NCBI GenBank assembly: GCA_030837965.1
Contig: JAUTXP010000047.1
Coordinates: forward strand, 124,001-188,000
DNA: 64,000 bases
Source of the DNA: Acidimicrobiaceae bacterium
Lineage (GTDB): Bacteria > Actinomycetota > Acidimicrobiia > Acidimicrobiales > JAUTXP01
Direction: 5' to 3'
Both the position numbers and the translations under genes were made by a program. A model generated the notes under the pieces. That model had not been told where the DNA came from and made no database searches. It was given only the letters and a program-made list of their open reading frames with translations. Below are positions 5,266 to 41,508 of the stretch, in pieces (within the stretch, counting starts at the first letter, position 1; each line of letters opens with the position of its first letter).

Positions 5266-5358
5266 GGACGCTTGTGGTCCGGTGTCGGCGTCGGGGTCTG
5301 GCTGGAACACAGTGGCGGGACCGCGCCGGACTCCCACCGGCTTCCCGTCGACGACCGG
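5266..5358 (-). promoter_or_regulatory. Cobalamin riboswitch upstream of cobI
   Basis: On the minus strand the intergenic region between cobB and cobI contains the conserved cobalamin aptamer core. GGGAAGCCGGTGGGAGTCC is followed by GGCGCGGTCCCGCCACTGTG and then, after a very short variable part, the B12-box-like CAGCCAGACCCCGACGCC. The GCCGG/CCGGC helix and the GCGG/CCGC helix can both be drawn. It sits just before the GAGGA ribosome-binding site of cobI, so it probably shuts off the cobI to cbiG-cobJ genes when B12 is plentiful. Exact boundaries are approximate. Confidence 0.85.
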
Positions 5359-5364
5359 GCGACT

Positions 5365-6741
5365 CTAGCGGCCGGCCGCTGCGGCTGCGGCGGCGGCGGC
5401 TGCGGCGGTGGCGGCCACGAAGCGCTCGGCCACCTCGGGCACGGCGGCCAGGTGCAGGTGCAGGTACGACGCCAACAGGGTGGGGCAGGCCCACCCGCCC
5501 GGGCCTCCGCCCAGCCTGCCTTCGAGGGCGAGGGCGTCGCCCGCGGGATCGAGCACGGAGTAGTGGAACTCGTGGCCCCGAAGCACAGTGCCGGCGGCGG
5601 CCAACGGGTTGTCCCTTCCCGCCCCGACCGTCGCCGTGCGGTAGCCGAGGGTGAGCCGATCCGTCATGCGCCCGTCGGCCGGCACCGCCCCCGCCAGGGG
5701 CAGGCCGTCGAGCGACCGGGCCAGCCACAGCAGCCCGCCGCACTCGGCCCACGTGGTGAGCCCGCCCGCGACCCGGGCCCGCACGTCGTCCAGCAGCGGG
5801 CGGTTGGCGGCCAAGGCCTGGACGAAGACCTCGGGGAACCCGCCGCCCGCGTACAGCCCGGCCACGCCTGCGGGCAGGGCGGCATCGCAAAGCGGGTCGA
5901 ACGGGACCAACTCGGCGCCCGCCTGCACGAGCAGTTCGAGGTTGTCGGGATAGGTGAAGCTGAACGCGGGCCCGCCCGCCACCGCGATGCGCACCGGCCC
6001 CCCTGCCACGGCGTCGGTGCGACGGGCCGTCGGCGGGTCGGCCACCTCGGTGCGGACGGGAGCGGTTCGGGCCAGCGCCATGAGGGCGTCCAAGTCGCAG
6101 CCCTGGGCCACGGCCTGGGCCAGTCGATCCAACGACCGGCGCACCGCGTCCGGCTGCTCGACCACGGGGACGAGGCCGAGGTGGCGGTCCCGCCACGCGA
6201 AGGCGTCGTCCCTGCGAAGCACGCCCAGCACGGGCATCTCGAGCGGGGCCAAGGCCTCCCGCAGCAGGGCCTCGTGCCCGTCGCTCCCCACCCGGTTGAG
6301 GATCACGCCCGCCACCCGCACGGCCGGGTCGAACGACATATACCCGTGGACCATGGCGGCCACGGAACCGCTCATGGCCGCGGCGTCCACCACCAGCACC
6401 ACGGGCGCGTCCAGCAGGGTGGCGACCTGGGCCGTGCTGGCCGGGCCGTCGAACAGGCCCATGACGCCCTCGACCACCAGCACGTCGGCCCCCGCCCCGG
6501 CCCGGGCGGCCAGGGGCGCCATGAGATCGGGCCCGCAGATCCAGGCGTCCAGATTGCGGGACGGGCGCCCGGCGGCGAGGGCGTGATAGCCGGGGTCGAT
6601 GAAGTCGGGCCCGACCTTGGCGGGCGCGGCCACCACGCCCCTGCGGCGCAGGGCGGCCAGCAGGCCAGTGGCCACCGTCGTCTTGCCCACCCCCGAGTTG
6701 GTGCCCGCCACAACCAGGCGGGGTCCGAGGGCGGCGGCCAC
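5365..6741 (-). CDS. cobB: Cobyrinic acid a,c-diamide synthase
   Basis: It amidates the a and c carboxyls of (hydrogeno)cobyrinic acid using glutamine and ATP. The 458 residues show the P-loop TNSGVGKTTVATG at residues 14-26, the switch region KVGPDFIDPGYH at 42, and a class-I-like glutamine amidotransferase domain with WAECGGLLWL (Cys334). The end is a run of alanines (ATAAAAAAAAAAGR) from a GCN repeat. The GTG start at 6741 has no clear ribosome-binding site. It is separated from cobI by the riboswitch, so it could share a transcript with the operon yet escape that control. Confidence 0.93.
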   Translation of the reverse strand: MAAALGPRLVVAGTNSGVGKTTVATGLLAALRRRGVVAAPAKVGPDFIDPGYHALAAGRPSRNLDAWICGPDLMAPLAARAGAGADVLVVEGVMGLFDGPASTAQVATLLDAPVVLVVDAAAMSGSVAAMVHGYMSFDPAVRVAGVILNRVGSDGHEALLREALAPLEMPVLGVLRRDDAFAWRDRHLGLVPVVEQPDAVRRSLDRLAQAVAQGCDLDALMALARTAPVRTEVADPPTARRTDAVAGGPVRIAVAGGPAFSFTYPDNLELLVQAGAELVPFDPLCDAALPAGVAGLYAGGGFPEVFVQALAANRPLLDDVRARVAGGLTTWAECGGLLWLARSLDGLPLAGAVPADGRMTDRLTLGYRTATVGAGRDNPLAAAGTVLRGHEFHYSVLDPAGDALALEGRLGGGPGGWACPTLLASYLHLHLAAVPEVAERFVAATAAAAAAAAAAAGR

Positions 6742-7989: not shown

Positions 7990-8531
7990 TACTCGATGCC
8001 CTTCTTGGCGCCCACGCCGGTGTCGTACACGTGCTTGAGCTTGCGCATCTCGGTGGCCGTGTCGGCCACGTCGATCAGCTCGGGCGGCGCGTCGCGCCCG
8101 GTGATGACCACGTTGGTCTTGGCCGACCTGCCGGTTACGCCCGCCACCACGTCGGCCACGTCGACCCAGCCGTACTTCACCGCGTAGGTCAGCTCGTCGA
8201 GGATCAACAGGTCGTAGTCGCCTGACGCCAGCTTGGCCGCGGCCACCTCCCACGCGTGCCTGCCCTTGGCCGCGGTCTCGTCCAAGTCGGTGGACTCCCA
8301 CGTGAACCCGTCGCCCAGCGTGTGCCACTCGATGCCCAGGTGGTCGGCCAACTTGCGCTCGCCCGTCTTCCACTTGCCGCCCTTCACGAACTGGACGACG
8401 CCCACCGTCCACCCCCGGGCCCACCCCCTGGCCATCACGCCGAAGGCGGCTGACGACTTGCCCTTTCCGTGACCGGTGTTCAACAGGACGATCGAATCGG
8501 ATCGGGGCACGGCCGCAGAAGGTAATGTCAT
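7986..8531 (-). CDS. cobO: Cob(I)yrinic acid a,c-diamide adenosyltransferase
   Basis: It transfers the 5'-deoxyadenosyl group of ATP to the cobalt of corrinoids (CobO/CobA/BtuR family). The 181 residues hold the family P-loop NTGHGKGKSSAAFG at 18-31, VVQFVKGGKWKTGE, and the Walker-B-like LLILDELTYAVKYGW. It ends with KKGIEY, as in homologues. The start ATG at 8531 abuts the beginning of the divergent riboswitch, so the two transcripts share regulatory DNA. A later GTG (VPRSDS) is a possible alternative start. Confidence 0.94.
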   Translation of the reverse strand: MTLPSAAVPRSDSIVLLNTGHGKGKSSAAFGVMARGWARGWTVGVVQFVKGGKWKTGERKLADHLGIEWHTLGDGFTWESTDLDETAAKGRHAWEVAAAKLASGDYDLLILDELTYAVKYGWVDVADVVAGVTGRSAKTNVVITGRDAPPELIDVADTATEMRKLKHVYDTGVGAKKGIEY

Positions 8532-8625
8532 CGGCGCTGCGCAGGGAACACCGGTGTGAATCCGGGGCTGTCCCGCAACGGTCAGTGGCCCTCGCCACGA
8601 GCCCGATACCTGCGCCGCCCGAGCG
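8526..8625 (+). promoter_or_regulatory. Cobalamin riboswitch upstream of cbiZ
   Basis: This is the textbook cobalamin aptamer order: GCGCAGGGAACACCGGTGTG, GAATCCGGGGCTGTCCCGC, AACGG, then CCACGAGCCCGATACCTGCG. The flanking GGCGC and GCGCC can close the P1 helix. It precedes the GTG start of cbiZ by about 40 bases and so heads the cbiZ-cobU-cobS-cobD-cobC-cobQ series. Its 5' edge touches or enters the first codons of the divergent cobO, so its promoter probably lies inside cobO. Confidence 0.95.
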
Positions 8626-8663
8626 CCACGCAGCCTGCGACTGGCGCAGAGAGAAGGGGACGC

Positions 8664-11414: not shown

Positions 11415-12316
11415 TCCCCGCGGGCCGCCACGGCGGCGACGGGGCTCGGCTGGCCGCCGCCCTGGGCATCGATCCCGGCGCGGTGCTCGACCTGTCGGCC
11501 AGCCTCAACCCGGTCGCCCCTGACGCGGGCGACGTGGTGGCCAAGCACCTCGACGCTTTGCGCCGCTATCCCGATCCGGCCCAGGCCACCGTTGCCCTGG
11601 CCGAGGCCATGGGCGTGGACCCCGACTGCCTCCTGCTCACCAACGGCGGGGCCGAGGCCATCGCCATGGTGGCAGCCGATAAGGGGGGCACGGTCGTCAG
11701 CGAGCCCGAGTTCTCGCTGCACCCGCGCCTGGCCGAGGGTGGCAACGGCCCTCATTGGCGGTCCAACCCGCACAACCCCACCGGCCGGTTGTGGACCGCC
11801 CCCATCGACGACGGCAGCACCGCCGGGACGGGCTGGGTCTGGGACGAGGCCTTCTACCCGCTCGCAACCGGTCGGTGGACGGCCGGGCACACGGGCATCG
11901 TCGTCGGCTCCCTCACCAAGCTCTTCGCCTGTCCGGGCCTGCGACTCGGCTATGTCCTCGCCGACGTCGGCTGCGTGCAACGCCTGCGCGACCGACAGCC
12001 CGAGTGGTCGGTCAACGGCCTGGCCGCGTCGGCGCTGCCGGACCTGCTGGCCGGCGCCGACCTGCCCGCGTGGGCCGCGGCCGTGGCCCGCCTGCGGGCT
12101 GCGCTCGTCGATCTGCTCACGCCGTTCAAGCCCCTGCCCTCGGACGCCAACTACGTCTTGTGCACCGACGCCGCGGGCCTGCGCGACCGACTCGCCCCCC
12201 ACGGCGTGCTCGTGCGCGACTGTGCGAGCTTCGGGCTGCCCGACCATGTGCGCGTGGCCGTCCCCGACGAAGCGGGCTTGGCCCGTTTGCAGGAGGCGCT
12301 GTGCGCGGCGGGCTGA
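11411..12316 (+). CDS. CobC-like PLP-dependent aminotransferase / threonine-phosphate decarboxylase
   Basis: A fold-type I PLP enzyme placed where cob clusters keep the L-threonine-O-3-phosphate decarboxylase that supplies the aminopropanol linker. The 301 residues show DLSASLNPVAP at 27-37, TNGGAEAIA at 77, SNPHNPTG at 118-125 and WDEAFYP at 144. The PLP lysine Lys170 lies in GSLTKLFACPGLRLGY. It is shorter than typical CobC/CobD enzymes of about 330-360 residues because the segment between PEFSLHPRL and SNPHNPTG is compressed. The decarboxylase assignment rests on context; a histidinol-phosphate aminotransferase origin cannot be excluded. Confidence 0.85.
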   Translation: MIPAGRHGGDGARLAAALGIDPGAVLDLSASLNPVAPDAGDVVAKHLDALRRYPDPAQATVALAEAMGVDPDCLLLTNGGAEAIAMVAADKGGTVVSEPEFSLHPRLAEGGNGPHWRSNPHNPTGRLWTAPIDDGSTAGTGWVWDEAFYPLATGRWTAGHTGIVVGSLTKLFACPGLRLGYVLADVGCVQRLRDRQPEWSVNGLAASALPDLLAGADLPAWAAAVARLRAALVDLLTPFKPLPSDANYVLCTDAAGLRDRLAPHGVLVRDCASFGLPDHVRVAVPDEAGLARLQEALCAAG

Positions 12317-13791
12317 TGGTGTGCGGGACGACGAGCGACGCGGGCAAGAGCCACGTGGTCACCGGGCTCTGCCGCCTGCTCGCCCGAAGGGGCGTGCGCG
12401 TCGCCCCCTTCAAGGCCCAGAACATGGCCCTCAACTCTTATGTCACGCCGAGCGGCCACGAGATCGGCCGGGCCCAAGGGGTGCAGGCCCTGGCCGCCGG
12501 GGTGGAGCCCGAGGTGGCCATGAACCCGATCCTGCTCAAGCCCACGGGGGAGCGGACCAGTCAGGTCGTGGTGAATGGAAGGCCCCTCGCCCACATGACC
12601 GCGGCCGAGTACCACGAGGCCAAGCCCGGCCTGCTGACCACTGTCCTCGACGCGCTGGCCGACCTGCGCAGCCGCTTCGATGTGGTCATCGTCGAGGGCG
12701 CGGGCAGCCCGGCCGAGATCAACCTGCTCGACCATGACATCGTGAACCTTCGCATCGCGTCGGAGGCCGGACTGCCCGCCATCGTGGTGGGCGACATCGA
12801 CCGCGGCGGCGTGTTCGCCGCCCTCTACGGCACCGTCGCCCTCTTGCCCGACCACTACCGCGCCTTGGTGCGCGGCTTCGTCATCAACAAGTTCCGCGGC
12901 GACCCGGCCCTGCTGGGAGACGGCCTGGCCGACCTCGAACGCCGCACCGGCGTGCCCACCTTGGGCGTGCTGCCGTTCGTGCACGACGTGGCCCTCGACG
13001 CCGAGGACTCGCTGGCCCTCACCGGCCTGCGCCCGCGCGCCAACGCGCCCGCGGTGGCCGACTCGCTCGACATCGCCGCCGTCCACTTCCCCCGGCTCTC
13101 CAACTTCACCGACCTCGACGCGCTGGCCCTCGAGCCCGGCGTGGGCGTCCGCCTGGTGGACAGCCCGGCCGCGCTGGGCGCCCCCGACCTGGTGATCCTG
13201 CCCGGCACCAAGGCCACCGTCGCCGACTTGGACTGGCTGCGGGGCCGAGGCCTGGACCGGGCCATCGCCGCCACCGACGCGTTGGTGCTCGGCCTGTGCG
13301 GCGGCCTTCAGATGATGGGCCGGGTCATCGAGGACCCGGCCCGCGTCGAGTCCGACCGCAGCCGGGTGGAGGGGCTGGCCTGGCTGGACGCGACCACCGA
13401 GTTCGGCCCGGCCAAGGTCACGCTGCAACGCCGTGGCACGTGCATGGGCCAACGGGTGACCGGCTACCAGATCCACCACGGCCGGGTGCACCAAGGGGAC
13501 GGCACGCCCGGCTGGGTCCATCTGGACGACGCCTATGGCCGAGACGACGACGGCGCGGTGGAACCGGTCGAGGCCCGCTTCCTGGGCACCACGCTGCACG
13601 GGCTGTTCGAACAGGACGGCTTCCGCTCGACGTTCCTCACCGAGATCGGGCGGCGGCGGGGCAAGACGTTCGTGCCCGCGGGCGTGTCCTTTCCCGCGGC
13701 CCGGCGGGCCCAGTTCGACCGGCTGGCCGACCTGTTGGAGGCCCACATGGACATGGCGGGCCTGGAAGCACTCATCAAGGAAGGCGTCTGA
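12301..13791 (+). CDS. cobQ: Cobyric acid synthase
   Basis: It amidates the b, d, e and g carboxyls of adenosylcobyrinic acid a,c-diamide. The 496 residues begin with LMVCGTTSDAGKSHVVTGLC and have PFKAQNMALNSYV, VEGAGSPAEINLLDHDIVN, and DIDRGGVFAALYG. The glutaminase part has the nucleophile Cys333 in LGLCGGLQMMG and GYQIHHGR toward the end. I chose the GTG at 12301 because AGGAGG ends four bases before it; the ATG at 12316, touching the upstream stop, is the alternative. Its own stop codon is the first three bases of a Fur/Zur-like palindrome. Confidence 0.95.
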   Translation: MRGGLMVCGTTSDAGKSHVVTGLCRLLARRGVRVAPFKAQNMALNSYVTPSGHEIGRAQGVQALAAGVEPEVAMNPILLKPTGERTSQVVVNGRPLAHMTAAEYHEAKPGLLTTVLDALADLRSRFDVVIVEGAGSPAEINLLDHDIVNLRIASEAGLPAIVVGDIDRGGVFAALYGTVALLPDHYRALVRGFVINKFRGDPALLGDGLADLERRTGVPTLGVLPFVHDVALDAEDSLALTGLRPRANAPAVADSLDIAAVHFPRLSNFTDLDALALEPGVGVRLVDSPAALGAPDLVILPGTKATVADLDWLRGRGLDRAIAATDALVLGLCGGLQMMGRVIEDPARVESDRSRVEGLAWLDATTEFGPAKVTLQRRGTCMGQRVTGYQIHHGRVHQGDGTPGWVHLDDAYGRDDDGAVEPVEARFLGTTLHGLFEQDGFRSTFLTEIGRRRGKTFVPAGVSFPAARRAQFDRLADLLEAHMDMAGLEALIKEGV

Positions 13792-13803
13792 GAATGATTC
13801 TCA
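13789..13803. promoter_or_regulatory. Fur/Zur-like operator candidate, box 1 of 2 before cobN
   Basis: TGAGAATGATTCTCA is a perfect 7-1-7 palindrome, the geometry of Fur-family (especially actinobacterial Zur) sites. It starts on the cobQ stop codon and lies 40 bases before the cobN start. The same 19 bases, TGAGAATGATTCTCATTCC, recur at 40502-40520. Confidence 0.6.
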
Positions 13804-13826
13804 TTCCGACAGCGCCGCGGTGTTGA
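13794..13826 (+). CDS. Ten-codon leader ORF before cobN
   Basis: ATG ATT CTC ATT and onward encodes MILIPTAPRC and stops two bases before the cobN ATG. Its first codons repeat those of cobN (MILV) because a 35-base unit carrying the palindrome is duplicated. It could couple translation or be a by-product of the duplication. No ribosome-binding site is obvious. Confidence 0.3.
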   Translation: MILIPTAPRC

Positions 13827-13838
13827 GAATGATTCTCG
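13824..13838. promoter_or_regulatory. Fur/Zur-like operator candidate, box 2 of 2, overlapping the cobN start
   Basis: TGAGAATGATTCTCG differs from box 1 only in the last base. The cobN start codon ATG (13829-13831) is in its centre, so a bound repressor would sit on the translation start. Spacing to box 1 is 35 bases. Confidence 0.55.
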
Positions 13839-16800
13839 TTCTTACCAACGCGGACACCGAGATCCTGGCTCTGCGGTCGGTGGTCGAAGCCCTGCCCGAG
13901 GGGTTCCCGCCCGTGCGGGCGGCCAACCCGTCGGCCCTGGCCGACGCGCCCGACGTGTCGGAGGCCGATATCGTGCTGGTGCGGCTGCTGGGCGGGCGCA
14001 GGGCGTGGGAGCAGCAGTTCGAACGCCTGCGGGCCCAATGCGTCGAGCAAGGGATTCCGCTGCTCGCCTTCGGCGGCGAGGCCGCACCCGACGCAGAGCT
14101 GACCTCCCTGTCAACGGTCCCGAGCGCCACCGTGGCCACCGCCTTCGAGTACCTCCGCTCCGGCGGTCTGCACAACACCGAGCACCTTCTCCGGTTCGTC
14201 AGCGACACCGTGTTGTTGACTGGGTTCGGGTTCGACGCGCCAGTCGAGGTCCCGGCCGTGGGCGTCTTTCGGGCCCCGCAGCCACGTGGCAAGGACAACG
14301 GCGGCGATGGCGATGGCGATGGCGATGGCGATGGCGATGGCGATGGACGGCGGCGGCTCCTGGTCGGCGTGGTCTTCTACCGGGCCCACGTGCTCAGCGG
14401 CAACACCCAGTTCGTCGACGACCTGTGCGACGCCATCGAGGCCGCGGACCCAGACGGCACGACGGACGCGGTGGCCGTCTACTGCTACTCGCTGCGCGAG
14501 CCGGAGCCGCTCGCCTTGCTGGCCGACCTCGGGCTCGACTGCCTGGTCACGACCGTGCTGGCCATGGGGTCGGCCGACGGCGACCAGTGGGACGCGTCCG
14601 GCCTGGCCGACTTGGACGTCCCCATCGTGCAGGCCATGGCGGCGACGCAGTCGTCGGCCGCGTGGGCCGCGTCCGACAATGGGCTGGCGCCCATCGACGT
14701 GGCCATGTCCGTGGCCATCCCCGAGTTCGACGGCCGCATCGTCAGCGTTCCCTTCTCGTTCAAGGAGACGGTGGACGACGGCGACTCGCTAGGGGCGCCG
14801 GTGACGGCATACCGCACCATGCCGGACCGCGTGCGCAGGGTGGCGGGCATCGCCGTGAAGCAGGCCCGCCTGCGCCACATCGCCAACGCGGACAAGCGCA
14901 TCGCGGTCGTGCTGTCCGCCTATCCGACCAAGCAGAGCAGGCTGGGCAACGCCGTGGCCTTGGACACGCCCGCGTCCACCATCGACCTGCTGCACGCCTT
15001 GCGGGACAAGGGCTATCGGGTCGAGCGCATCCCTGTTGACGGCGATGCCCTCATGCACGAACTGGCCGACCACCTCGACCCCGAGCGGCCCACGGCGTTG
15101 GACCTGGGCCACGTGCTGGTGGCCATCCAACCGCCTCGCGGCTTCGGCGACAACCCGGTGGCGGTCTACCACTCGCCGGACCTGCCGCCCACCGAGCAGT
15201 ACGTGGGCTTCTACCGCTGGCTGGAGGACGAGTGGGGCGCCCACGCCGTGGTGCACATGGGCAAGCACGGGACCCTTGAGTGGCTGCCGGGCAAGGGCGT
15301 GGGCCTGTCGGGGGAGTGCTGGCCGGACGTGTCGCTGGGCGACCTGCCGCTCGTCTACCCGTTCGTGGTGAACGACCCGGGCGAGGGCACGCAGGCCAAG
15401 CGCCGAAGCCACGCGGTGATCATCGACCACCTGTTGCCGCCCATGACGCGGGCCGACACCTACGACGACCTGGCCCGACTGGAGGGGCTGCTGGACGAGT
15501 ACGCGCAGGTGGCGTCGCTCGACCCGGCCAAGCTGCCCGCCATCCGCGCCCGCGTGTGGGACCTCCTGGTGCAGGCCGAACTGCATCGGGACCTGGGCAT
15601 GTCGGCCATGCCGGACGAGGAGGCGTTCGACGACCTCGTCCTGCACGTGGACGGCTACCTGTGCGAACTGAAGGACGCCCAGATCCGCGGCGGGCTGCAC
15701 ACGCTGGGCCGCCCGCCTGAAGGCGACGCGCTGGTCGACCTGGTGCTGGCCATGACCCGGCTGCCCCAAGGGGACGTGCCTCCGCTGCGCCGGGCCGCCG
15801 ACGGCTCGCTGCACGACACCGACGAGGCCGAGGCCGAGGCCCGGGCCGTGGTCGAGGCCCTCGCCGCCGGCCAGTGGAAGACGAGCACGGACGACCCCAC
15901 CCAGCGTTGGGTGTGCCAGACCTTGGTGCCTGCCCTTACCAGGACCACCGACGAGGTGGCCAATGTTCTGCGGGCCTTGGACGGCCGCCATGTGGTGTCG
16001 GGGCCGAGCGGCGCGCCCACGCGCGGGATGGCCCACGTCCTGCCGACCGGGCGCAACTTCTACTCGGTCGATCCGAAGGCGCTGCCGTCGCGTCTGGCGT
16101 GGGAGGTGGGCTGCAAGCTGGCCGACCAGTTGCTGGCCCGCCACCTCGAGGAGGAGGGCAGGTATCCCGACTCGGTGGGCCTGGTGGTGTGGGGCACGGC
16201 GGCCATGCGCACCTCCGGCGACGACGTGGCCGAGGCCCTGGCCCTCATGGGCGTACGCCCGGTGTGGGCCGCGGAGTCGGCGCGGGTGACGGGCGTGGAG
16301 CTGATCCCGGACGAGGAGTTGGGCAGGCCGCGTGTCGACGTCACTCTGCGCATCTCGGGCTTCTTCCGTGATGCCTTCCCGCATCTGATCGAGCTGTTGG
16401 ACGACGCCTGCAAGCTGGCGGGCTTCGACGACGACCCTCGCATCTTCGGGGCCAAGCCCGGCGCCTACGGGTCGGGAATCCTGCCCCTGTTGGAGTCGCG
16501 CGACTGGCGCAGCGACGACGACCTGGCCGCCGTCTACGAGGCCTGGTCGGGCTGGTCCTACGGGCGGGCCGCGCTGGGCGGAGCGGCGGCCCACGACGCC
16601 ATGCGCAGGCGCTTCGCCCTCATCGACGTGGCCGTGAAGAACCAGGACAACAGAGAGCACGACATCTTCGACTCCGACGACTACCTGCAAGACCACGGCG
16701 GCATGGTCGCCACCATTCGGGCCCTCACCGGCCGCCAGCCCAAGGCCTGGTTCGGCGACTCGGCCGACCCGGCCCGGCCCCGCGTGCGCAGCCTGGCCGA

Positions 16801-17155
16801 GGAGGCGGCGCGCGTCGTGCGTACCCGCGTCGTCAACCCCAAGTGGATCACGGCCATGCAGCGCCACGGGTACAAGGGCGCCTTCGAGATGGCGGCCACG
16901 GTCGACTACCTCTTCGGCTACGACGCCACCGCCCACGTGGTGGAGGACTGGATGTACGAGCGGGTCACCGACGCGTACGTGGCCGACCCGGACGTGCGCA
17001 AGTTCTTCGAGCAGTCCAACCCGTGGGCCTTGCGATCGATCAGCGAGCGCTTGTTGGAGGCCCATGAGCGGGGGCTGTGGGATGCGTCCGACGCGGCCTT
17101 GTCCACGCTGCGCTCGGCCCTGTTGGAGGCTGAGGGCTGGGAGGAGTCGCGATGA
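13829..17155 (+). CDS. cobN: Aerobic-type cobaltochelatase large subunit CobN
   Basis: CobN is the large, substrate-binding subunit of the ATP-dependent chelatase that inserts cobalt into hydrogenobyrinic acid a,c-diamide. The 1108 residues show the CobN/BchH family features: VLSAYPTKQSRLGNAVALD, FYRWLEDEWGAHAVVHMGKH, GTLEWLPGKGVGLSGECWP, GRNFYSVDPKALPS and FGAKPGAYGSGILPL. A (Gly-Asp)7 tract at about residues 159-172 comes from a hexanucleotide repeat and is not a family feature. The start ATG lies inside operator-like box 2. The motor subunits CobS/CobT were not found; the fused ChlI/ChlD-type protein at 18365 is the likely partner. Confidence 0.95.
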   Translation: MILVLTNADTEILALRSVVEALPEGFPPVRAANPSALADAPDVSEADIVLVRLLGGRRAWEQQFERLRAQCVEQGIPLLAFGGEAAPDAELTSLSTVPSATVATAFEYLRSGGLHNTEHLLRFVSDTVLLTGFGFDAPVEVPAVGVFRAPQPRGKDNGGDGDGDGDGDGDGDGRRRLLVGVVFYRAHVLSGNTQFVDDLCDAIEAADPDGTTDAVAVYCYSLREPEPLALLADLGLDCLVTTVLAMGSADGDQWDASGLADLDVPIVQAMAATQSSAAWAASDNGLAPIDVAMSVAIPEFDGRIVSVPFSFKETVDDGDSLGAPVTAYRTMPDRVRRVAGIAVKQARLRHIANADKRIAVVLSAYPTKQSRLGNAVALDTPASTIDLLHALRDKGYRVERIPVDGDALMHELADHLDPERPTALDLGHVLVAIQPPRGFGDNPVAVYHSPDLPPTEQYVGFYRWLEDEWGAHAVVHMGKHGTLEWLPGKGVGLSGECWPDVSLGDLPLVYPFVVNDPGEGTQAKRRSHAVIIDHLLPPMTRADTYDDLARLEGLLDEYAQVASLDPAKLPAIRARVWDLLVQAELHRDLGMSAMPDEEAFDDLVLHVDGYLCELKDAQIRGGLHTLGRPPEGDALVDLVLAMTRLPQGDVPPLRRAADGSLHDTDEAEAEARAVVEALAAGQWKTSTDDPTQRWVCQTLVPALTRTTDEVANVLRALDGRHVVSGPSGAPTRGMAHVLPTGRNFYSVDPKALPSRLAWEVGCKLADQLLARHLEEEGRYPDSVGLVVWGTAAMRTSGDDVAEALALMGVRPVWAAESARVTGVELIPDEELGRPRVDVTLRISGFFRDAFPHLIELLDDACKLAGFDDDPRIFGAKPGAYGSGILPLLESRDWRSDDDLAAVYEAWSGWSYGRAALGGAAAHDAMRRRFALIDVAVKNQDNREHDIFDSDDYLQDHGGMVATIRALTGRQPKAWFGDSADPARPRVRSLAEEAARVVRTRVVNPKWITAMQRHGYKGAFEMAATVDYLFGYDATAHVVEDWMYERVTDAYVADPDVRKFFEQSNPWALRSISERLLEAHERGLWDASDAALSTLRSALLEAEGWEESR
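14303..14344 (+). repeat. GGCGAT hexanucleotide repeat (7 units) inside cobN
   Basis: Seven perfect tandem copies of GGCGAT are in frame and encode alternating Gly-Asp. Copy number changes would keep the frame. The tract falls between VGVFRAPQPRG and RRRLLVGVVFYRAH, so it is probably a surface loop between two folded parts of CobN. Confidence 0.95.
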
Positions 17156-17232
17156 GCGCGACCCGTCACACGACCGCGTCGAACCTCGACACTCGCATCA
17201 GTGGAGCCGACCGGCCCCGGCGGGTGCGCTTA

Positions 17233-18348
17233 TCAGGCAGGCGCTTCTTGGGGGATGGATTTGGGCGGCGCGGGTGGCGGCGGCAGCACGGCGCGCACGG
17301 CGGCCGACGTGGCCTCCTTGGCCACCTCGCGCACGGCCCGTCCGTCCGGGGCCACCACGCCGACGGTGCCGGGCGTGTCCAGCGTGCAGCCTTGGCGGGC
17401 CAGGACCACGAGCGATCCGTCGGGCAGCCAGCCCACGGGCTCGGCGTGCTCGGCCATCGTCGCCTTGAGGTCCAGGTACTTGCCGTTGCGCTCGGCCCGC
17501 AACACGGCGCTGCCGCACTGGCCTTGCGTCCACGCCACGCCGCCGCCGCTGAACGGCGACGTCACCACGTGGTCGATGACCGCGGGCTTGGCCACCTCGG
17601 CAATCGTCGTCAGCTTGCCCGCGTCGATCTCCTGGCGGTGGAGCACGTACTTGTCGTCGTGCTCGGCCACGAACAGCAGGGCGCCGCTGGCCGTGAACGT
17701 GATGTTGGCGATGTCGCGGGCATCCGCGGTCTTGGTCAGGAGCCGGGCGTCTTGGCCCTGGTTGTCGGCGATGTAGAACTCCGTCGAGCCGTCGTCGCCC
17801 CGTCCCACCGAGACGATGGTTCGGCCCGCCGGGTGGTAGACGGCCTTTTCGTGCTTGGCCATGAAGGTGATGTCCACCGTGTCGGGCGATCCGAGTTCCC
17901 GCTTGGTGAGCCTGCCTTCGGGCGTAACCCGAAGCACGGCGGTGCCCGTCGGCCGGGACAGCACGCCCGGTCCGTCGAAGGGCTTCACCGGGGCCGACTG
18001 GCCGACCACGACCGTGTCGCCCAGCAGGACGCGGTCGGCCTTGCCGCCCCACGCCGAGACGGTGGTGGCGTGGTCGATCAGACAGCCCGACTCGTCCAGC
18101 AGGCGCCCGCGCGCCACCCACGTGACCGCGCCCTTTTGTGGGGCCGGTCCCAGGCCGTGGCAGTCCGCCGACACGCCGGTGCCGGGGCTGACCGTGCCTG
18201 GGTTGGAGGGCACGGTGCTCGAAGGTGCCGCGGTGGTGGACGAGCCTGCGTTGCGCCCCTTGCCCCCCGCCGCACCCTTGTCCTTGTTGGACGAGCACCC
18301 GCCCGCCACGGCCATCACGGCCAACAGCAATGCCAGCGCCCGCCTCAT
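17233..18348 (-). CDS. Putative lipoprotein with beta-propeller-like repeats
   Basis: The 371-residue protein has a lipoprotein signal peptide (ALALLLAVMAVAGGC, lipobox Cys at about 18), then a Ser/Thr/Pro-rich linker, and then repeated short beta segments such as VDITFMAKHEKAVYHPAGRT and ANITFTASGALLFVAEHDDK that look like propeller blades (TolB/WD40 type). The C-terminus is proline-rich (LPPPPAPPKSIPQ). Its start codon is 17 bases from the divergent chelatase start, so the promoters must overlap coding DNA. Function unknown; it probably sits on the outer face of the membrane. Confidence 0.7.
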   Translation of the reverse strand: MRRALALLLAVMAVAGGCSSNKDKGAAGGKGRNAGSSTTAAPSSTVPSNPGTVSPGTGVSADCHGLGPAPQKGAVTWVARGRLLDESGCLIDHATTVSAWGGKADRVLLGDTVVVGQSAPVKPFDGPGVLSRPTGTAVLRVTPEGRLTKRELGSPDTVDITFMAKHEKAVYHPAGRTIVSVGRGDDGSTEFYIADNQGQDARLLTKTADARDIANITFTASGALLFVAEHDDKYVLHRQEIDAGKLTTIAEVAKPAVIDHVVTSPFSGGGVAWTQGQCGSAVLRAERNGKYLDLKATMAEHAEPVGWLPDGSLVVLARQGCTLDTPGTVGVVAPDGRAVREVAKEATSAAVRAVLPPPPAPPKSIPQEAPA

Positions 18349-18364
18349 GGAGGAAGTATGCCCC

Positions 18365-20131
18365 GTGCCTGATCTGCTGTTTCCCTTCGCCGCGGTGGTG
18401 GGCCAGGGCGAGGTCAAGCTGGCCTTGCTGCTCAACGCCGTCGACCCGGCCATCGGCGGTGTGCTGCTGCGGGGCCAGAAGGGGAGCGCCAAGTCCACCC
18501 TGGCCCGAGCCCTGGCCAAGCTGCTGGCCAAGGACGCGCCCTTCGTCGAGCTGCCGGTGGGCGCCACCGAGGACCGCGTCGTCGGCACCGTCGACATGGC
18601 CGCGGCCCTCACCCATGGCGAGCGGAGGTTCCAGCCCGGACTGCTGGCCGAGGCCCACGGAGGCGTGCTCTACGTGGACGAGGTGAACCTTCTGCCCGAC
18701 CACTTGGTCGACGTGCTGCTCGACGTGGCCGCCAGCGGGGTGAACAGGGTGGAGCGCGAAGGCGTGTCGCACGAGCACCCGAGTCGGTTCGTGCTCATCG
18801 GCTCCATGAACCCGGAGGAAGGGGAGTTGCGCCCGCAGTTGCTCGACCGCTTCGGCCTGGCCGTCGACGTGGCCGCCAGCGTGGACCCGGACGAGCGGGC
18901 CGAGGCCGTCACCCGCAGGCTCGACTTCGACCGCAACCCCATTGCCTTTTTGGAGCGCTGGTCGGGGTCGGACGTGGCCTTGCGCACGCGCCTGGCCGAT
19001 GCCGGACGGGCGACCGTTTCTGCCGAGCTGGTGCGCACGGTGTCGGCCCTCTGCGCGGCGGCGGGGGCCGAGGGCCTGCGGGCCGACCTGGTGATCTGTC
19101 GGGCCGCGGCCGCCCTGGCCGGATGGGAGGGTCGGGCCTCGGCCACCGTCGAGGACGTGCGACGGGTGGCGCCGTTGGCCTTGAACCACCGCCGTCGGCG
19201 CTCGCCGTTCGAGGACCACGGCATGGGCGCGGACGAGTTGGAGCAGGCCTTGGCCGAAGCCACCGGCGAGGCGCCGCCATCGGGCTCGCAAGACGAGGAG
19301 CAGCCTGCGGCCGCGCCCGATGCTCCTACGCGCATCGTCAGGCTGGACGGGCCTCGCTCCGAGGCAGGCGGGAGAAGGGCATCGACCGAAGGGCCAAGAG
19401 GCAGGCTGGTGGGCGACCGTCCGCTGGCCGCGTCCGTCGGCGGCCCTTCGGGCGGCATTTCGGGTGGAGTCGCGGTCGGCGCCACGGCGCGAGCCGCGGT
19501 GGTGCGCAGGGCGGTGGACGGCGGGCCCATGCTGGCGCGTGACGACCTGCGTGAAGCGGTGCGCGAACAGCGGGCCGGGAACTTGATCGTGCTGGCCGTG
19601 GACGCGTCGGGATCGATGGGCGCGGCCCGACGCATGGAGGCGGCCAAGGGCGCGGTGCTCTCCGTCCTGCTCGACGCGTATCAGCGCAGAGACCGCGTCG
19701 CCCTGGTCACCTTTCGAGGCAGCGAGGCCGAGGTGGTGCTGCGGCCGACCGGCAGCGTGGAGGTGGCCAAGGCCCGACTGACCGATCTGCCCACGGGCGG
19801 GACGACGCCGTTGGCCGCGGGCATCGAGGCCGCCCTCGACCTGGCCGACCGCAATCGGTCAGGCCCCCATCAGCCGCTGCTCGTCCTCATCTCGGACGGA
19901 CGGGCCACAGCGGGGCCGCCCGGGGTCGACCCGCTCGACGCGGCACTGGCCGCGGCCGCGCTGGTGAAGCGCAAGGGCGTGGCCGCGGCGGTGATCGACG
20001 CGGAGGACGGCCCGACCCGACTGGGCCTGGCCCGGTCCATCGCCGATGCCATGGGCGCTCGTCTGCTCACCGTGCCCGAGCTGTCGGCGGGCGCCCTGCA
20101 AGGCGCCATCCGACAAGCCGCGGATTCCTAG
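18365..20131 (+). CDS. Fused ChlI/ChlD-type chelatase motor subunit (putative cobaltochelatase partner of CobN)
   Basis: A 588-residue AAA+ plus VWA protein of the kind annotated in actinobacteria as a putative cobaltochelatase subunit. The ChlI-like AAA+ domain (1 to about 330) has Walker A GQKGSAKSTL at 37-46, LYVDEVNLLPDHLVDVLLD and SMNPEEGELRPQLLDRF. A Gly/Ala/Arg-rich linker follows. The VWA domain has the MIDAS motif DASGSMGAA at 413 and TPLAAGIEAALDLA. It would replace the separate CobS and CobT motors. GTG 18365 is chosen because homology starts at once (FPFAAVVGQGEVKLALLLNA) and GGAGGAAG precedes it; an in-frame ATG at 18347 is possible. Confidence 0.9.
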   Translation: MPDLLFPFAAVVGQGEVKLALLLNAVDPAIGGVLLRGQKGSAKSTLARALAKLLAKDAPFVELPVGATEDRVVGTVDMAAALTHGERRFQPGLLAEAHGGVLYVDEVNLLPDHLVDVLLDVAASGVNRVEREGVSHEHPSRFVLIGSMNPEEGELRPQLLDRFGLAVDVAASVDPDERAEAVTRRLDFDRNPIAFLERWSGSDVALRTRLADAGRATVSAELVRTVSALCAAAGAEGLRADLVICRAAAALAGWEGRASATVEDVRRVAPLALNHRRRRSPFEDHGMGADELEQALAEATGEAPPSGSQDEEQPAAAPDAPTRIVRLDGPRSEAGGRRASTEGPRGRLVGDRPLAASVGGPSGGISGGVAVGATARAAVVRRAVDGGPMLARDDLREAVREQRAGNLIVLAVDASGSMGAARRMEAAKGAVLSVLLDAYQRRDRVALVTFRGSEAEVVLRPTGSVEVAKARLTDLPTGGTTPLAAGIEAALDLADRNRSGPHQPLLVLISDGRATAGPPGVDPLDAALAAAALVKRKGVAAAVIDAEDGPTRLGLARSIADAMGARLLTVPELSAGALQGAIRQAADS

Positions 20132-40488: not shown

Positions 40489-41508
40489 ATGGATTCGAAG
40501 ATGAGAATGATTCTCATTCCCATGCTGGTCGGCGCGTTGGTCGCCGGGGGCTGCTCCAAGAAGGAGTCGGCCGCGCCCCGCGCCACCACGACCACCCAGC
40601 CAGGGGTGACGACGACCACCACGCCGCCGCCGCCCGCGCTGTTGACCGGCCTGCCCATCGGCGACCGCGACAACCTGGACCGGCCCGCGTTGGTGGTCAA
40701 GATCGACAACGCGCCCGAGGCCCGGCCCCAGGCAGGCGTGGACAAGGCCGACGTCGTGTACGAGGAGGTCGTGGAGGGCGGCGTGGTGCGCTTCATGGCC
40801 GTGTTTCAGTCGCGTGACGCGGGCCTGGTCGGCCCGGTGCGATCGGTTCGGCCCGTCGACCCCGACATCGTCACGCCCCTCAAGGGCCTGTTCGCCTACT
40901 CGGGCGGCGCGCCGCAGTTCGAGCGGCTGATCAAGAAGGCGCCGGTCCGACTGGTGGGCGTGGACCAGTTGCAGGACGCGTACGACCGGCGCAGGGACCG
41001 CAAGGCCCCGCACAACACCTACAGCTCGACCAAGGCCCTCTACAAAGGGGCCAAGAAGGGCGACGACCAGCCGCCCGCGCTGTTCACCTACGGCACGCCC
41101 AGCGGCCTGCCGGTCAAGCACGCCACCGTCGCCATGGGCGCGCTGACCAAGGCGGACTGGGACTGGGACCCCGGCCTGTCCCTGTGGAAGCGCACCACCA
41201 ACGGCATCCCGCACGTGATGGAGGACGGCCCGCAACTGGCGTTCGCCAACGTGGTGGTGCAGTACGTGCGGTACTCGAACACGACGTCGCGCGACCCTGC
41301 GGGCTTCCCTGTGCCCACGGCCGACGTGGTGGGGACCGGCGACGCGCTGATCCTGGCGGGCGGCACGCTCATCAGGGGCAAGTGGGACAAGGGCGCGGTG
41401 AGCGCAGTGACCAAGTACACCGACGCCACCGGGGTGCCCGTGCTGCTCAAGCCCGGCCCCACGTGGGTGATGCTGGCGCCGGTCGGCGCGTCGACCGCCA
41501 CGTCCTAG
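40489..41508 (+). CDS. DUF3048 lipoprotein
   Basis: 339 residues. A lipoprotein signal ([18 protein letters not shown]) is followed by a Thr/Pro linker ([20 protein letters not shown]) and a full DUF3048 domain ([62 protein letters not shown]). This family is related to YerB of Bacillus, and its role is unknown. An ATG at 40501 is an equally good start and would place the operator-like palindrome directly on the start codon, as in cobN. Confidence 0.85.
40502..40516. promoter_or_regulatory. Fur/Zur-like palindrome, third copy, at the DUF3048 start
   Basis: TGAGAATGATTCTCA is identical to box 1 before cobN, and the identity extends to 19 bases. It overlaps the ATG at 40501. The AT-rich 15-mer stands out from the G+C-rich surroundings. 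Confidence 0.55.

Follow-up and report, generated by a model that had tools for sequence, protein, structure and literature searches.

The window analysed here, a stretch of 64 kb from an uncultured actinobacterium, contains a run of cobalamin genes, cobU-cobS-cbiB-cobC/D-like-cobQ-cobN, which is headed by a cobalamin riboswitch and has cobN, the gene for the large subunit of cobaltochelatase, as its final gene (Table 1). The identities of cobQ and cobN are secure. Two palindromes, called boxes 1 and 2 below, are located at the last junction of this run, and their position raises the question of whether cobN is under metal control, separately from the riboswitch. The explanation that we favor, at a probability of about 0.6, is that the boxes constitute a pair of operators of the regulator Zur, which would lower the transcription of cobN when zinc is sufficient.

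The box pair at the start of cobN

A preliminary description of this DNA placed a 15-mer, TGAGAATGATTCTC(A/G), at 13789 and 13824, with the first copy covering the stop codon of cobQ and the second one the start codon of cobN. Both copies are indeed found there, 35 bases apart. The TGA of cobQ (13789-13791) forms the first three bases of box 1, which is located 40 to 26 bases upstream of the cobN start, whilst the ATG of cobN (13829) is contained in box 2; a TTG in frame with cobN is present at 13823. A third exact copy of TGAGAATGATTCTCA at 40502 in the window had been overlooked. The ten-codon open reading frame that was described as a copy of the beginning of cobN does exist between the boxes, but its likeness to cobN is explained by the palindrome, which itself includes ATG ATT CTC. 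The frame is a by-product of the ATG within box 1, and no evidence was found for translation of its product, MILIPTAPRC.

Table 1. Location of the boxes and of the genes and elements discussed, in window coordinates.
Feature	Position	Strand	Remarks
Cobalamin riboswitch	8520..8631	+	RF00174, 41.3 bits; heads the cob run
cobQ, cobyric acid synthase	12268..13791	+	Open frame, true start near its 5' end; NF001989, 596 bits (cut-off 273)
Box 1	13789..13803	.	TGAGAATGATTCTCA, perfect 7-1-7 palindrome; matrix score 28.7, the highest found
Direct repeat, 18 nt	13789-13806 and 13824-13841 (13789..13841)	+	17/18 identical; spacing 35
Ten-residue open frame	13794..13826	+	MILIPTAPRC; between the boxes, ends in the first TGA of box 2
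Box 2	13824..13838	.	TGAGAATGATTCTCG, spans the cobN start; matrix score 24.5
cobN, cobaltochelatase large subunit	13829..17155	+	TIGR02257, 1126 bits (cut-off 822); PF02514
Second chelatase subunit, ChlI/ChlD-like	18380..20131	+	TIGR02442 family; matched part C74:142380-144074 = window 18380-20074
Third exact copy of TGAGAATGATTCTCA	40502..40516	.	Begins at base 2 of the likely start ATG (40501) of a DUF3048 lipoprotein gene

The pair was proposed to have originated from a 35-base duplication. This origin is rejected, as the repeat extends over only 18 bases and the units agree, outside a 14-base core, at 7 of the other 21 positions. This is the random level: 21-mer pairs drawn at random from the cob genes match equally well in 44% of cases. 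A different history is suggested by the relatives. Among the 13 in which the junction was measurable, 12 have a 4-base overlap (xTGA) between cobQ and cobN, whereas here 37 bases separate the cobQ stop from the cobN ATG. Thus, ~41 bases, including box 1, were gained, and the segment up to 13828 is mostly extra relative to the overlap in the relatives. The start of cobN is an easy place for building a box, since its N-terminal Met-Ile-Leu is often written in relatives as ATGATCCTC, which is one synonymous change away from ATGATTCTC.

A similar arrangement is found on another contig, C27 (locus L015, 5472-5507), where two boxes 21 bases apart, i.e., two helical turns, lie at a stop/start junction and overlap both the stop of the first gene and the start of the second, which encodes a lipoprotein, a layout as at cobQ/cobN. 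The 33 bases from position 5493 of this locus are identical to window positions 13789-13821 at 29 positions. Beyond the box, 15 of the 18 following positions are the same, which is expected for 5 in a million random pairs, and such an extended pair occurs at only these two places in the genome. Possibly, a longer piece was copied between the two loci. Upstream of the boxed lipoprotein gene, a RiPP-like cluster (L015 6296-9299, reverse strand) encodes three short precursors with a common GEELPDREAMSLIN and a daptide-type HExxH intramembrane metalloprotease.

Downstream of cobN, no box is present at the gene for the second chelatase subunit, the pieces of which score below the TIGR02442 cut-off when taken apart. 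The forward frame between the two chelatase genes (17152-18372) is probably spurious, as no protein family matches its product and a lipoprotein-like product (MRRALALLLAVMAVAGGCSS...) is encoded on the opposite strand (17233-18345). A second cobalamin riboswitch, just over the gathering score, is located at 5292-5347 on the reverse strand, close to a cluster on that strand that includes cobI and cbiD. The genome combines cobN, which belongs to late cobalt insertion, with cbiD, which is typical of early insertion.

Distribution of the box and its candidate regulator

The boxes did not arise by chance. With up to three mismatches, the 64-kb window contains six strand matches at three places, where 0.49 are expected after dinucleotide shuffling, and the observed number was reached in none of 100 shuffles. 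A pattern search of the whole genome (3.55 Mb) yielded nine places in seven loci at up to two mismatches, whilst a reversed control pattern gave no matches in the same search. At 0, 1, and 2 mismatches, respectively, 2, 5, and 2 places were observed, as compared with 0.00007, 0.006, and 0.24 expected from a third-order Markov model, which was built from 132 kb of the same genome (71% G+C) and left the center position of the box free. Matrix scores were computed on the fetched loci only.

Five of the seven loci are at gene starts, including those of the DUF3048 gene and of a lipoprotein gene with a transglycosylase-like domain. The boxes that overlap a start read xTG AGA ATG ATT CTC, i.e., (M)RMIL, as is also the case at several znuA genes of the order, and this peptide suits the signal peptide of a lipoprotein as well as the N terminus of cobN. 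The codons needed are rare in this genome, with ATT used for 2.3% of Ile and AGA for 0.4% of Arg residues, so it looks as though the boxes were maintained or created at the level of DNA. Numerous copies in unrelated coding regions had been named beforehand as an argument against regulation. The two remaining loci touch on this point: boxes with one mismatch, written in rare codons, lie well inside a TPP-enzyme gene (L013 5032) and a glycosyltransferase gene (L014 4972). Insertion of a mobile piece into the former was considered and rejected, as alignment to solved structures revealed that codons were replaced and nothing was inserted.

The preliminary description had suggested looking for copies before zinc-uptake genes and had called the boxes Zur-type sites. 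Consistently, one box, TGAGAATCATTCTTA, is located on contig C82 between a zur-like gene of the Fur family, 6 bases away, and the znuA gene of a znuABC operon, 28 bases away, in which the ZnuA-family gene is followed by those for an ABC ATPase and an ABC-3 permease. At the level of sequence, the boxes at cobN are identified with that of zur-znuABC. Of the three Fur-family genes in the genome, the one on C82 alone has the box, as a matrix scan found none at the loci of its two paralogues. In the order, a box scoring at least 16 was found at 10 of 29 loci of zur orthologues, against a mean of 0.33 and a maximum of 8, reached by one permutation, for column-permuted matrices. Furthermore, near-exact boxes were searched for in 148 genomes of the order, and in 14 of the 29 loci fetched the box lies where a ZnuA-family gene starts. 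Boxes 1 and 2 also fit tGaNNatSatNNtCa, the ChIP motif of Zur of Streptomyces coelicolor (PMC5472717), except that the last A is a G in box 2. Together, the scan of the whole genome, the box of zur-znuABC, those at znuA genes across the order, and the fit to the Streptomyces motif are the reasons to call this the Zur box of the order, an assignment that is well supported by sequence. As a target for Zur, CobW/COG0523 was dismissed, as the genome lacks a convincing member and has merely weak GTPase matches.

The regulator itself has a Fur-family fold (PF01475, 63 bits) and contains the structural CxxC...CxxC motifs of a zinc site, both of which are shared with its two paralogues. With 21 bits, it does not pass the cut-off of 167 of the curated NCBIfam Zur model NF008646, and its best matches to Fur-family models are likewise below cut-off. 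It is called Zur-like because of its operon context and the box, not by family membership. ZnuA-family proteins bind zinc, and some bind manganese. Since the regulator remains under the Zur cut-off and its ZnuA partners may handle manganese, the designation of zinc as the metal is based on context. The other two paralogues have surroundings of their own. On contig C52, a 10-1-10-like palindrome, TATCAACAATCGTTGTTGATTA (L018 4153-4174), is located just upstream of a Fur/PerR-like gene beside a rubrerythrin-like gene and is probably the operator of this paralogue. On contig C80 (L019 1656-4881), a second ZnuA/ABC-3 transporter locus without a Zur box adjoins the third paralogue.

Does zinc control cobN?

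In the mechanism proposed, the boxes would be operators of the Zur-like repressor encoded beside znuABC on C82. It is very likely that this protein binds the boxes at the cobN junction. At sufficient zinc levels, dimers of metal-loaded Zur would occupy both boxes and reduce transcription into cobN, by forming a roadblock to the transcript driven from the riboswitch, by blocking a local start, or both; when zinc falls, cobN would be relieved together with znuABC. A sigma-70-like promoter was not found near or between the boxes, which favors the roadblock. As metE was searched for in the genome and not found, the cell probably depends on B12 for methionine, and a strong repression of cobN at ordinary zinc levels would be costly. 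A partial effect is, therefore, more plausible than a shut-off.

Parts of this scheme have counterparts in other bacteria. The Zur box of S. coelicolor is likewise a 15-bp 7-1-7 palindrome with the same fixed positions and is found before znuA, which even carries two of them (PMC5472717), and the box described here is close to the footprint consensus, TGAAAATGATTTTCA, quoted for this species (PMC2823685). The boxes differ, however, in that position 4 is a G here, with a C as its partner, the target is a B12 chelatase gene, and the C82 regulator is only distantly related in sequence to S. coelicolor Zur. In Corynebacterium glutamicum, Zur boxes overlap promoters from which leaderless transcription begins at the ATG, which resembles the position of box 2, but the motif there is 21 bp with other flanks, and the listed targets are genes for zinc uptake and allocation with no cobalamin gene among them (PMC2823685). 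In Bacillus subtilis, Zur sites are found in coding sequences and cluster around translation starts, as they do here, and intragenic boxes reduce transcription 3- to 10-fold in cis, whereas in a zur mutant the expression of genes with such boxes was unchanged (PMC4324032); there, no cobaltochelatase gene has a box pair spanning its start codon. The closest parallel for the target is in the PA1922-PA1925 operon of Pseudomonas aeruginosa, where a cobN-like gene is under Zur control, as is proposed here (PMC4542158, PMC13083405). This gene, PA1923, was ~122-fold upregulated in a znuA mutant (PMC4542158). It is located in an operon together with genes for a TonB receptor and ExbD and with the Zur site before the operon, whereas here cobN belongs to a riboswitch-headed run and the box pair is inside it. 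No report of Zur control of cobN in a riboswitch-headed cobalamin operon was found in the open-access literature searched, and neither was a Zur regulon for this order in the literature found.

Metal control of cobN is something that we infer against certain observations. The box was detected at none of 42 other cobN starts, which are mostly from the same order with none from the same family or genus; the best score there was 11.3, vs. 24.5-28.7 here. Thus, the link with cobN is lineage-specific and derives no support from conservation, and it reflects either control newly gained in this lineage or a site that is bound yet neutral. In addition, no promoter-like sequence was found between the boxes, and two loci of the seven are intragenic. 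On the sequence evidence, a real effect of zinc on cobN in this organism has slightly better than even odds.

The neutral possibility is that Zur binds the boxes with little or no effect on cobN, as part of an accumulated scatter of intragenic and near-start sites in this lineage. It would account for the two intragenic loci, which show no operon logic, for three further loci at starts of lipoprotein genes without a known zinc role, and for the lack of conservation both at cobN and at the DUF3048 gene, where none of 29 relatives has the box. There are precedents as well, since 72 of 113 upstream Zur sites of S. coelicolor are within the neighboring coding region (PMC5472717) and 35 intragenic Zur sites of unclear role are known in B. 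subtilis (PMC4324032). However, two near-perfect boxes 35 bases apart in gained sequence, one of them over a start codon, form a strong arrangement, and gene starts host most of the loci, so we consider a neutral scatter rather unlikely. More doubtful is that the regulator senses manganese, iron, or cobalt and that cobN answers to that metal. The failure of family models to name the C82 regulator Zur, the zinc- or manganese-carrying members of the family of its ABC partner, and the presence of another znuABC-like locus, which has a Fur paralogue to itself, would agree with this, but the box matches published actinobacterial Zur motifs, and the rubrerythrin-linked paralogue owns a different palindrome.

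Zur might also act as an activator, or on an internal cobN promoter, and yield more chelatase at high zinc, like for zitB in Streptomyces. Activation from an upstream box is known for actinobacterial Zur (PMC5472717), the distance of box 1 from the cobN start would be suitable, and without metE, repression in zinc-rich cells is less attractive. A box over the start codon, however, fits blocking rather than activating, and the junction lacks promoter-like sequence, which renders activation improbable. It is highly improbable that no regulator is involved at all and that the palindromes came about by chance, represent a short mobile repeat, or form an RNA hairpin that covers the start codon. Chance is excluded by the Markov expectation. 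The extended match between box 1 and C27 hints at longer copying, but apart from this pair the flanks common to the box loci reach only as far as TTC, and codons were swapped in the TPP-enzyme gene. A hairpin can form over the cobN start, but it is weak (z = -1.9) and is not what is conserved: boxes are found in either orientation with respect to the genes, and in a sense-strand variant, TAAGAATCATTCTCA (L096), an RNA pair is disrupted.

A possible role of zinc in B12 synthesis

Of the readings considered, repression of cobN by zinc-loaded Zur remains the one that we prefer. A tentative extension, for which the odds are somewhat less than even, is that cobalamin controls the gene run while Zur, via the two boxes at its last junction, sets the amount of cobaltochelatase and so matches the use of cobalt to the zinc supply, with cobalt insertion as the one step under zinc control. 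Competition between metals in the cell decides which metal enters a protein or a tetrapyrrole. If the proposed control is real, B12 synthesis would be tied genetically and directly to zinc status, through a zinc-responsive operator that acts on the cobalt chelatase gene and is distinct from the riboswitch. Such a tie has so far been suggested mainly by the cobN-like gene in the TonB-receptor operon of Pseudomonas. The analysis also supplies a defined Zur box for Acidimicrobiales-like MAGs.
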